The notes under the pieces were generated by a model. That model did not search any database, was not told the origin of the DNA, and saw only the letters and a list, made by a program, of their open reading frames with translations. Shown here piece by piece: positions 15,722 to 19,423 of a stretch of 25,701 nucleotides of DNA. The position numbers and the translations under genes were made by a program. Each line of letters starts with the position of its first letter. The stretch's first letter is position 1. The stretch is from a virus: IMG/VR virus record IMGVR_UViG_3300030060_002404, positions 1 through 25,701 of that record, one strand, 5' to 3'.

Positions 15722-16141
15722 TTATGCTACTGTCAGCGTTCCAGTTCCTTCAATTGCTACTGAATAAGTTGGAGCATCTTCAGTTCCTCCACTCACTTCA
15801 ATAGAAGTAATAAAGCCAGAGCCACTCATATTATAAGCAGAAGCGTCTGCAATACCAAATACAAATGTGACTGCAGTTCTTGCTAACATTTGAGTGAATA
15901 ATTCATCTAGTTCAGTATCAGAGCCACCAGTTGCAAAGTCCATAAGTCCATCTGCCGAAAGACTGAAAGACTTTTGTCCACCTATTAAATCTCTGAAACC
16001 AGCAGAGTCTTTAGTTGAGATGTCTATTGTGTCAGTATTTACCGACAATGATACAGTCTGAGAATGCATCAGTTTTACAGCCGTTCCACCATTAGATGGA
16101 CTGACTTTTAGGATTAAATCCGTTCCATTAAAAATTGCCAT
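15722..16141 (-). CDS. Major tail (tube) protein
   Basis: The 139-residue product starts MAIFNGTDLILKVSPSNGGT. It shows the pattern of TP901-1-type major tail proteins: an N-terminal beta segment, TVSLSVNTDTIDISTKDSAG (about 29-48) with the typical T-I-D-x-S-T-K-D motif, and a beta-rich C-terminus (GFITSIEVSGGTEDAPTYSV). It would polymerise into the tail tube. Position before the chaperone and tape measure genes agrees. A structured hairpin follows the stop codon. Confidence 0.9.
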   Translation of the reverse strand: MAIFNGTDLILKVSPSNGGTAVKLMHSQTVSLSVNTDTIDISTKDSAGFRDLIGGQKSFSLSADGLMDFATGGSDTELDELFTQMLARTAVTFVFGIADASAYNMSGSGFITSIEVSGGTEDAPTYSVAIEGTGTLTVA

Positions 16142-16344: not shown

Positions 16345-16761
16345 CTATCTATTTATGTTAAATCTATAATCTTGTGCTAAACCATATAATCCTACTGTAC
16401 CAGCCGAATCATCATAAAGTTCGTTTTGATCTTGATAAAATATCTTATCAACTACTACTCCATTATAAGTACCACTTGCATAATCTAATGCAGTTCTAAC
16501 CAAACCAGCTAGAGTAGTCATATCCTTATAACTATTATGATATATGCTTATTTGCACTCTTACATAGTCATAAGTCGAAGCTCCGTTCTTTGTATTGTTT
16601 GGCTCATCAGAAACCATCTGATAAGTAATATATGGGAGCTTTACATTCTTAGGAAAGTTATATCTACTAGGAAATATTCTAGTGTTAGAATCAGTAGTCA
16701 ATAAATTGCTTATTGTTGCATTATTGCTTAATATATTATATATGACTTTGCCTACTTCCAT
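16345..16761 (-). CDS. Tail terminator / completion protein, DUF3168 type
   Basis: The 138-residue product contains the DUF3168-like pattern: a helical N-terminus (VGKVIYNILSNNATISNLL), RIFPSRYNFPKNVKLPYITY (28-47), then a strand with YDYVRVQISIYHNSY and a helix (LAGLVRTALDY). Proteins of this class cap the tail tube and join it to the head, as in the tail completion proteins of HK97-like phages. It lies between the gp10-like gene and the small 58-residue gene, the expected neck order. Confidence 0.8.
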   Translation of the reverse strand: MEVGKVIYNILSNNATISNLLTTDSNTRIFPSRYNFPKNVKLPYITYQMVSDEPNNTKNGASTYDYVRVQISIYHNSYKDMTTLAGLVRTALDYASGTYNGVVVDKIFYQDQNELYDDSAGTVGLYGLAQDYRFNINR

Positions 16762-16762
16762 T

Positions 16763-17293
16763 CTAAAACTTCTTTTTTACAAGTTTATCTATTACTTTTT
16801 TTATTTCATTTACAACATTAGATTGAGCCATTTTTGCAGTTGTACTATTATGAACTTTATCTAACATCCTAGCTCCTGGCTTACCTTTAAATCCATACTC
16901 TAAAAAGAAAAAATGAAAACCACTTCTTTCCTTATCAGCAAAAGCTCCTTTCACTCTAGGACCAACATAAACGGCTGGCTGTGCGCCCCTTCTCATTTTA
17001 CCATTTATTACAGCTATACTTTTTCTTAGTCTACCAGTTGCCCTATTTCTTTTACCGACATTGTCTTTACCTTCTATTTTTTTAATTTCTGATCTTAACT
17101 CTTTAACTAAAGGTGTGGCAGCTTTGCGCATACCTTGTCTAAGTTTTACTTTAGTTTGACTGTCAGACAAATTAAGTTTTTCCATAAAACGAATCAACGA
17201 TTTTAATTCTGTTTCATTTATTGAATAACCAACTAATCCCTGATGCCCTCCTTGATTACCTCTTAAATTTTTTTCTGTGAATACTGTAGCCAT
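16763..17293 (-). CDS. HK97 gp10-like neck / tail protein
   Basis: The 176-residue product has the HK97 gp10-like profile: a basic helix (MRKAATPLVKELRSEIKKIEG), TGRLRKSIAV (86-95), a strand segment AVYVGPRVKGAF, and the YGFKGKPGARML stretch near residue 135 that ends the family's core. It is a probable tail-completion or neck component in the head-tail joining region. The start overlaps the upstream stop as TAATG. Confidence 0.82.
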   Translation of the reverse strand: MATVFTEKNLRGNQGGHQGLVGYSINETELKSLIRFMEKLNLSDSQTKVKLRQGMRKAATPLVKELRSEIKKIEGKDNVGKRNRATGRLRKSIAVINGKMRRGAQPAVYVGPRVKGAFADKERSGFHFFFLEYGFKGKPGARMLDKVHNSTTAKMAQSNVVNEIKKVIDKLVKKKF

Positions 17294-17490
17294 TAGTCAA
17301 CTTCTATTTTATGAGATTCTAAAACCTTTTGCCATTCTTCCTTATCTAAATACATCTCTATATTAGTTTCCTTTGTTGATAAAACTTGAATAGGACTTAC
17401 CATTCCATAGCTTAAAACTTTGTCATCCTCATCAAATATAATCCAATAAGTATCAACTTCAGGGTTTTTTATTTTATCTATATCTTTCAT
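17293..17490 (-). CDS. Small acidic protein in the neck module
   Basis: I use the ATG at 17490 (MKDIDKIKNPEVDTYWIIFD), which overlaps the upstream stop as TAATG. The frame is open to 17520 but that extension overlaps the preceding gene. The 65-residue product is acidic and has a beta-like core (DTYWIIFDEDDKVLSYGMVS) and a helical end. I do not recognise a family. Stop-start coupling on both sides indicates it is expressed with the neck proteins. Confidence 0.65.
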   Translation of the reverse strand: MKDIDKIKNPEVDTYWIIFDEDDKVLSYGMVSPIQVLSTKETNIEMYLDKEEWQKVLESHKIEVD

Positions 17491-18797
17491 TATGCTGTTC
17501 CTCCGTCTGTTATTGTCCAACCTTTACTCACTAAAGAAGCTCTAGCTGCTGCTGCCTCACCTCCAGCGGTGTATTGAGAAGTACCAAAGTTTATACTCAC
17601 TCCACTATTAACATTTTGAGCAGCCCATCCTATAAGCGTATCATCATAGTTAGCTGTGGATAATCCAGAGCCTCCACCAAAGAAAGTTAATTGATTACTA
17701 CTTAAAGCCGTTACATTCCATAAAGCCAATGATTGATCAAATGCCGTTGCTCCTGAGAACATAGTTACAGCCGATGACAAACTACTTACATTCCACATTG
17801 AAACATCTTGATTAAATACTGTATTACCCCCAAACATTGAAGAAGTATTTGTGACAGAAGACAAGTCCCACTTTGATAAGCTTTTATTAAATGGACAATC
17901 ATCAAACATATTAGATAAGTCTGTTGCCTTGCTTATATTCCAATTATTGCAATCTTGATTGAATTGACTACCGTGAAAGAAATTACTAAAATTAGTTATA
18001 TTGCTAACATCCCAATTATCAACGACTCCGTTAAAGTTTGTATCTTGAAATGTGCTAGTCGCATCAGTTGTATTAAATTGTAAGTTATCAGTTGCACTAG
18101 AAGTTAAATTAGTACAATCTTTAAAAGCTAAACTGTCTTGAATAATCAAAGGCCCATAAGATTTAATATCTAAAATTTTTAAGGTATCAATTCTTCCAAA
18201 ATTCCAAGCTCCAGTATCAATAGTAGTATTAATCCCACTAAAGACTCCTTTTATTTTTATAGTATATGTCCCAGCACTTCCGTAAGTATGTAATCCGTTT
18301 GCATCATTGTAGGTTGTTATTGTGTTGGTGTTACCATCCCCCCAATCGACAGTAAAGTCATAAGTCCCTGATGCTCTTGTTGGTAGTCCGTACTGAGTAG
18401 CTGTCGAGCTTCCAGTACCAGTATTATTAGTATTGATTGTATATTCAAAGAAAGTATTAATACCACTTAAATCTATTACATCATTTTGTTCTAGTTTCAA
18501 AAGCATTGCATCTTTTCTACCTATTTCTTGAATACTTTTTATAGAATAGTTGGTTGTGCCGTTACTTATAAAGTATTGTGGTGAAGTACCTATGTCTGTT
18601 CTGTATCTAATAAGACAATCGATTGTATCTTCATTTATCAAAGCATCAGCATCAAAAGAGGTTTTCCCACCTTTGAAGTCAAAATTGCCCAATATGGTGA
18701 CAAATGTATTTGAAGAAACATCTCTCTCTCCGTATTCGTTGGTTGTGAATACTTGTTTAAAGAGCTTAAGTTTTCTATCTAGTTTGCCTATTATCAT
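17490..18797 (-). CDS. Head-closure protein fused to PKD-like and BspA-like (DUF285) domains
   Basis: Residues 1-108 resemble the SPP1 gp16-type head-closure fold: LDRKLKLFKQVFTTNEYGER, a central beta region, and a final strand AMLLKLEQND. An Asn/Thr/Gly-rich linker (120-140) follows, then a PKD-like segment (147-186, with DWGDGNTNT and LHTYGSAGTYTIKI). A series of DUF285/BspA-type repeats spans about 260-375 (W-x-V-S-x-x-T-x-x-x-x-M-F...F-N-Q units starting at 262, 286, 310, 335). The end (ANYDDTLIGW ... ARASLVSKGWTITDGG) is the usual cap of BspA-like proteins. So a virion joint protein carries a bacterial-surface-like domain, presumably exposed at the neck. ATGA and TAATG overlaps bound the gene. 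Confidence 0.85.
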   Translation of the reverse strand: MIIGKLDRKLKLFKQVFTTNEYGERDVSSNTFVTILGNFDFKGGKTSFDADALINEDTIDCLIRYRTDIGTSPQYFISNGTTNYSIKSIQEIGRKDAMLLKLEQNDVIDLSGINTFFEYTINTNNTGTGSSTATQYGLPTRASGTYDFTVDWGDGNTNTITTYNDANGLHTYGSAGTYTIKIKGVFSGINTTIDTGAWNFGRIDTLKILDIKSYGPLIIQDSLAFKDCTNLTSSATDNLQFNTTDATSTFQDTNFNGVVDNWDVSNITNFSNFFHGSQFNQDCNNWNISKATDLSNMFDDCPFNKSLSKWDLSSVTNTSSMFGGNTVFNQDVSMWNVSSLSSAVTMFSGATAFDQSLALWNVTALSSNQLTFFGGGSGLSTANYDDTLIGWAAQNVNSGVSINFGTSQYTAGGEAAAARASLVSKGWTITDGGTA

Positions 18798-19423
18798 AGT
18801 TCAAGCAAACGATAAGGAGTTAATAAGTGATTAACCATTAAAGGCACTTCATTTACTTGTGTTCCCATTACTACATCTTGTCGGTTTTCATAGTATCTTC
18901 CTACTATTATATATATAGCTTGAATTATTGGAGCTGGTATATCACCTGCAGCAGCTCCCACGATAAACTCAACCTCAACAGCGTTAGGCCTATCATATGT
19001 ATTAGGAAAGTCCCCATCTTCAGATTGATATATTCTTCCTGGCCTTATCTTAGTATCTACATCATAATTTGATGCAGCTAAAGTTTGTAAAGCATTACTC
19101 TCATCATAATACTTTATATGTGTAACACTAGCGACCTCTCCTATTTGTAAATCAATATAAGGTGGGAACTCATCGTGAAATAAGTTAAATGTCTGTGTTA
19201 TAAGTCTTCTTCTTGTAAATTCTTCAACCATACTTGTCGCAACATTAATCAATGAGGTGATATAAGTATTATCATCATCATAGTCTGAGTCTATCCTTAG
19301 AAATGACTTAGCTTCTGCCAAAGATATAGGAGTAGTAGTTGGCGCAGTTTTTAAAACTAGCTTACCATAAGGCACATAGTCTGAATATGTAAATGCATTA
19401 AAGTTATAGTTGTAGTATTCCAT
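18794..19423 (-). CDS. Head-tail connector, gp6-like
   Basis: The 209-residue product has the connector pattern: ISLAEAKSFLRIDSDYDDDN (33-52), a helix NVATSMVEEFTRRRLITQTF, and PPYIDLQIGEVASVTHIKYY. Near the C-terminus a helical stretch (APIIQAIYIIVGRYYENRQD) is followed by LTPYRLLEL. This matches phage gp6-like connector proteins (HK97 gp6, phiE125 gp8). These form the ring beneath the portal. Translation starts two bases after the U tract of an intrinsic terminator, so its expression should depend on read-through. Confidence 0.87.
   Translation of the reverse strand: MEYYNYNFNAFTYSDYVPYGKLVLKTAPTTTPISLAEAKSFLRIDSDYDDDNTYITSLINVATSMVEEFTRRRLITQTFNLFHDEFPPYIDLQIGEVASVTHIKYYDESNALQTLAASNYDVDTKIRPGRIYQSEDGDFPNTYDRPNAVEVEFIVGAAAGDIPAPIIQAIYIIVGRYYENRQDVVMGTQVNEVPLMVNHLLTPYRLLEL

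Follow-up and report, generated by a model that had tools for sequence, protein, structure and literature searches.

A group of uncultured phages carries head-closure proteins to which a DUF285 leucine-rich repeat (LRR) domain is fused. Our example comes from the window, the 25,701 bases of IMG/VR record IMGVR_UViG_3300030060_002404 (positions 1 to 25,701), whose minus strand holds a siphophage-type structural operon. The usual view of head-closure proteins is that of an invariant plug in the DNA channel, yet in these phages the plug bears an adhesin-like domain, gained and lost as a cassette. We establish the fusion, the identities of its domains, the gain and loss of the cassette and the pattern of variability in a sister clade (clade B), where few parts of the structural genes change as fast as the LRR. 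The reading we favour, and consider rather likely, is an accessory adhesin cassette that can be exchanged, is held on the neck stopper by a covalent link and binds a variable ligand, which suggests that phages of this group grip surfaces with the neck as well as the tail.

The fusion gene (17490-18797, minus strand; ATG at 18797, stop at 17490) is uninterrupted and reads through all 435 residues, so that, as originally predicted, no frameshift or stop separates its two parts. The genes of the window run in the order TerS, TerL, portal, protease, capsid, adaptor, fusion gene, 65-aa gene, HK97-gp10-like gene, tail terminator and tail tube (Table 1); the names of the first four come from position and sequence, with profile support for some but not all of them. 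With the adaptor, HK97-gp10-like, tail terminator and tail tube genes as its neighbours, the fusion gene sits at the place of a head-closure gene, between the head-tail adaptor and neck/tail completion genes, and it does so in the relatives as well. Profiles and neighbours agree with the proposal that an LRR is covalently attached to a head-closure domain whose gene lies in its usual place. A chance reading frame or an assembly chimera can be ruled out, as the same architecture recurs in dozens of independent viral contigs. Phages that are otherwise similar carry the gp10-like gene with one of two N-terminal types, ..LRGNQGGH.. or MIVSAQI.., at a mean identity of 0.76 (the window gene; L040 9565-10044; L053 9181-9609).

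Table 1. Features of the neck locus in the window, and the LamG/CBM-like genes of clade B (positions refer to the window unless a contig is named).
Feature	Position	Strand	Basis or remark
Head-tail adaptor, upstream neighbour	18794..19423	-	PF05135, PHROG 442/40; 4-base overlap with fusion gene
Head-closure (stopper, Hc1/gp16-like) domain, residues 1-110	18468..18797	-	PF05521, PHROG 25, model, stand-alone relatives
Linker and PKD-like beta-sandwich, residues 111-190	18228..18467	-	PKD_4 weak
LRR N-terminal flank, residues 191-240	18078..18227	-	Alignable across clades A and B
DUF285 leucine-rich repeats, residues 241-375	17673..18077	-	PF03382, solenoid model
LRR C-terminal cap, residues 376-435 and stop	17490..17672	-	..GWTITDGG end kept in all relatives
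Small companion gene, 65 aa	17293..17490	-	Family undescribed; one-base overlap of its ATG with the stop of the fusion gene
HK97-gp10-like neck/tail completion protein, downstream neighbour	16763..17293	-	PF04883, PHROG 5
Tail terminator	16345..16761	-	PF11367, PHROG 347
Major tail tube protein	15722..16141	-	PF06199, PHROG 1407
LamG/CBM-like genes, clade B	L040 7407-9356; L154 440-3991; relatives		

Residues 1-96 of the fusion protein match Phage_HCP (PF05521) at 35.7 bits (cut-off 25), or 37.6 bits when residues 1-110 are searched alone, and PHROG 25 (head closure Hc1) covers residues 1-101 (E 7e-7). The N-terminus has no other Pfam or PHROG match, and the fusion protein also matches phrog_10356 (virion structural protein). 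We modelled the head-closure domain separately with AlphaFold, using 32 sequences from four clades, including a clade in which the protein stands alone (clade D, see below). Though the confidence of the model is low (pLDDT 56), it matches stoppers including SPP1 gp16, as had been foreseen for residues 1-108. Nearly all of the best 12 Foldseek rows are phage stopper or neck proteins or their relatives, as are most of the best 30 VIA rows, with Z scores of 8.7 over 96 residues for SPP1 gp16 (7z4w_1), 8.5 for RcGTA and 8-9 across phiXacJX1, SPP1 gp16, RcGTA, PBSX XkdH, Pam3, lambda and SF1141. We give moderate weight to the gp16-like fold that the model predicts for residues 1-110. A full-length AlphaFold run on a 48-sequence alignment gave no usable model of the head-closure part (pLDDT 23-45), and Foldseek with the full-length model returned nothing useful. 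Profiles and model uphold the head-closure assignment of the original prediction, with the edge of the domain nearer to residue 110 than to residue 108.

For the C-terminal part a Pfam search with the window protein finds DUF285 (PF03382) in two stretches (E 2.4e-29, 101.9 bits), the outcome the original prediction had led us to expect. The repeats are marked by tryptophans at 262, 286, 310, 335 and 360, a spacing of 24-25 residues, and a DUF285-type C-terminal cap ends in ..KGWTITDGG. The BspA-type family LRR_5 (PF13306) gave no reported match at E<=1 for the window protein. PKD_4 matches residues 141-182 weakly (17.3 bits, cut-off 27), and in the relative L040 PKD (PF00801) reaches 23.6 bits against a cut-off of 23.5. 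What had been described as a PKD-like segment with BspA-type repeats and cap is therefore sustained for the repeats and the cap, both of DUF285 type, but not for LRR_5, and the PKD match of the window protein stays below its cut-off. The domain had also been described as best known from Bacteroidota surface proteins; DUF285 is indeed present, but the family extends outside Bacteroidota, with plasmid matches that include Salinibacter, Helicobacter, Campylobacter, Vibrio and actinobacteria, and related repeats occur in >100 phage records. The LRR half is modelled as a solenoid (pLDDT about 90 over most of 241-430) that matches LRR proteins, including internalin F and a VLR-derived scaffold, at VIA Z 10-12.8; repeats of this kind are so common that these matches back the fold, not a function.

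Relatives of the fusion come only from viral contigs, which are metagenomic and often partial. Of the 87 distinct and complete head-closure genes that they contain, 69 carry the fusion and encode 429-470 aa, while the other 18 stand alone in the same gene order, encode 112 aa and stop where the extension of the fusion starts; in the stand-alone genes that we read, the gp10-like gene comes directly next. On a tree of adaptor plus head-closure residues, two changes account for the stand-alone state: one for a clade of 16 rows (clade D), the other for L076, a single contig nested among fused phages. In L076 the LRR and the adjoining 65-81-aa small gene are deleted together, plus any LamG gene, and head-closure codon 110 now runs on, without a change of frame, into the final two small-gene codons (..GACGTAGTAGACTTA followed directly by GAGCAATG..). 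Both the stand-alone relatives (n=18) and this in-frame deletion mark the extension as an accessory part that can be separated from head closure. DUF285 and LamG_3 are absent from all clade D contigs searched, partial as these are, which argues that the arms are dispensable for infection in general. Searches further afield gave no match of the head-closure domain to isolated phages (tblastn, even at E 0.1), pattern matches and no relatives in scans of prokaryote genome contigs with the fusion and portal alignments, and only distant phages with terminase and capsid. In the open-access texts searched we found no description of a stopper-LRR fusion.

Between the genes for head closure and the gp10-like protein lies an optional, exchangeable cassette of LRR, small gene and, in some phages, LamG genes; neither this cassette nor the hypervariability of the sister clade figured in the original prediction. 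The small gene is always last in the cassette and is of the same family in every complete locus inspected, with no Pfam match above cut-off and no PHROG. The same family is found directly 3' of PKD-LRR genes with unrelated N-termini (L017, L018, L019 and L022); the genes downstream of cyanophage and Zobellviridae DUF285 genes belong to other families. Given this linkage, the small protein may be a folding partner or chaperone, a cap or an attachment partner of the adhesin. A 64-aa gene of Acinetobacter phage MD-2021a (L191 3576-3770), directly overlapping the end of a gene for a surface protein with 26-residue repeats, matches the small-gene profile marginally (E 0.09). Clade B differs in that one or two lectin-like (LamG) genes precede the small gene; these large genes, between the LRR and small genes, encode 326-788 aa, with Laminin_G_3 in most of those scanned. 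The clade B LRR proteins share a conserved 33-aa C-terminal tail (..YISVLNTRVVAAGGVVENTT..FLQ.L; L040 7306-7404), which occurs only on LRR proteins with a LamG gene next and may be a docking segment.

Variation in clade B, taken over 35 distinct proteins, is concentrated in the LRR: 42 of 152 LRR sites exceed 1 bit of entropy compared to 0 of 210 in the head-closure and PKD parts (Fisher 3e-18). The variable sites lie at a fixed register of successive repeats (W+7, +9, +10, +11, +13, +14 and +16), whereas W, W+12 and W+18/19 hardly vary. Mean dN is 0.19-0.23 for the LRR and 0.025 for head closure, and in the 126 pairs with identical head-closure domains the LRR is identical in only 3 (mean LRR identity 0.77). 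Within the same cassette the small protein has a mean identity of 0.97, and the LamG protein beyond residue 60 is more variable than the LRR (0.47). In clade B pN/pS is about 1 at hypervariable codons and 0.14 at other LRR codons, and dN/dS is 0.08 for PKD; as dS is raised too in clade B, a pN/pS of about 1 leaves the import of diverged alleles and diversifying selection indistinguishable. Repeat positions share no alleles, and so give no sign of repeat shuffling. Alleles of different phages could be mixed by short-read assembly, a process that would not produce new codons at the register positions. The window's own clade has a mild LRR excess (dN 0.12 compared to 0.08). Tail-tip genes of the same contigs also diverge strongly, and the neck is thus not the sole variable place.

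An accessory adhesin is suggested by variability at fixed positions of a repeat scaffold, by lectin-like neighbours and by the optional presence of the cassette, and the sequences of clade B, with its LRR hypervariability and LamG lectin-fold neighbours, fit the binding of a variable surface. In the mechanism that we propose, the last strand of a siphophage stopper subunit would lead straight into a PKD-like spacer and the DUF285 LRR solenoid. Stoppers of long-tailed phages are hexamers below a dodecameric adaptor (PMC12886913). If the ring is hexameric here too, as in solved necks, the C-terminal extension would place about six LRR arms round the neck. These arms would serve as accessory adhesins and help to hold the particle at the host; their ligand, on the cell surface or in the environment, would be variable and is probably a glycan or a surface protein. 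The LRR, the small protein and, in relatives, the LamG lectin-like proteins would make up the exchangeable cassette. We infer the location in the virion, the copy number, the binding and the role of the small gene from these gene-level patterns. A bolder form, which we regard as possible but doubtful, has the stopper ring as a display platform for a hypervariable LRR binder resembling lamprey VLRs, with recognition of hosts or surfaces diversified at the neck through the fixed variable positions of successive repeats, and with exchangeable LamG lectins docked beside it.

Instead of touching the host, the arms might decorate the neck, where they would stiffen the head-tail joint, guide its assembly or serve as a dock for other fibres, LamG proteins for example. 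Phage 812 has neck decoration proteins that reinforce the joint (PMC12886913), and the 33-aa tail of clade B, with a LamG gene after only those proteins that carry it, is as one would expect of a dock. However, a decoration leaves unexplained both the hypervariability of fixed repeat positions beside a constant head-closure domain and the full absence of the arms in close relatives, and we think it unlikely. It is less probable still that the C-terminal part is a separate polypeptide off the stopper ring, arising by proteolysis or from an internal start at M98 (window 18504-18506). That methionine is invariant in all fused relatives and a leucine in the stand-alone clade, making an internal start possible, but it lies inside a strand of the modelled head-closure fold, neither a protease site nor a ribosome-binding site was identified, and M98 could be just a clade marker, since L076 keeps it without the LRR.

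A captured DUF285 gene riding along as a neutral passenger, with no function at the neck, could account for the loss of the extension in L076 and for a whole clade that lacks it. It is very hard to reconcile with an open frame kept in 69 distinct genes, with strong purifying selection outside the variable sites (the 0.14 and 0.08 given above for other LRR codons and PKD) and with the constant company of the small-gene family, and we give it little credence. Hypervariable codons in phage adhesins are typical of diversity-generating retroelements, but such an origin is most improbable here: 18 contigs (partial, the window among them) contain no reverse transcriptase (PF00078), codons change wholesale (AGA, TAT, GAC, CAA, TCA) and not from A to N, and the variable stretch covers >300 bp and four repeats.

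If the arms do bind hosts, as in the neck-anchored adhesin that we favour, host-range prediction for these phages must cover neck genes. The natural pairs with and without the cassette (clade D and L076) make a role as neck adhesin directly testable.

Several known systems share parts of this arrangement. Phage stoppers (SPP1 gp16, PF05521, PHROG 25) agree with residues 1-110 in sequence family, gene position and predicted fold, but most of the solved stoppers among our matches have 100-130 aa and no LRR arm. An external beta-sandwich domain is present in the stopper of phage 812 (PMC12886913). On the LRR side, DUF285 surface proteins of the 'BspA family' and phage DUF285 proteins (phage KZY1, Vibrio phage pir03) share the repeat family and a similar cap, but those inspected are stand-alone or have other N-termini, and none is joined to a neck protein. 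The adhesin-like gp10 protein from Nonlabens phage P12024S (L155 6549-8216), annotated as 'similar to putative tail fiber protein', shares homology with the clade B LamG-locus protein at the N-terminus and in the central region, after which repeat-like sequence follows; gp10 is neither encoded at nor fused to a recognised head-closure gene. The C-terminus of gp10 resembles degenerate repeats with an LRR-type cap.

The best functional parallel, by analogy, is the neck passage structure (NPS) of lactococcal phages. It is present in about two thirds of 936 phages and has a constant N-terminus, seven C-terminal groups and variable C-terminal CBMs, one of which bound host cells, and the TP901-1 NPS was reported to be non-essential (PMC6669499); domain shuffling has also been reported for neck passage proteins (PMC10684548). 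The NPS of 936 and P335 phages is thus an optional neck adhesin with a conserved N-terminal anchor and an exchangeable carbohydrate-binding C-terminus, and the fusion family shows the same optional presence and exchangeable C-terminal module. We rejected membership of the NPS family itself, as the anchor differs: the NPS has a protein of its own, in which a BppU-like ring domain is combined with a coiled-coil fibre, whereas the N-terminus here is Phage_HCP, so that the anchor is the stopper itself and the putative binder a DUF285 LRR.
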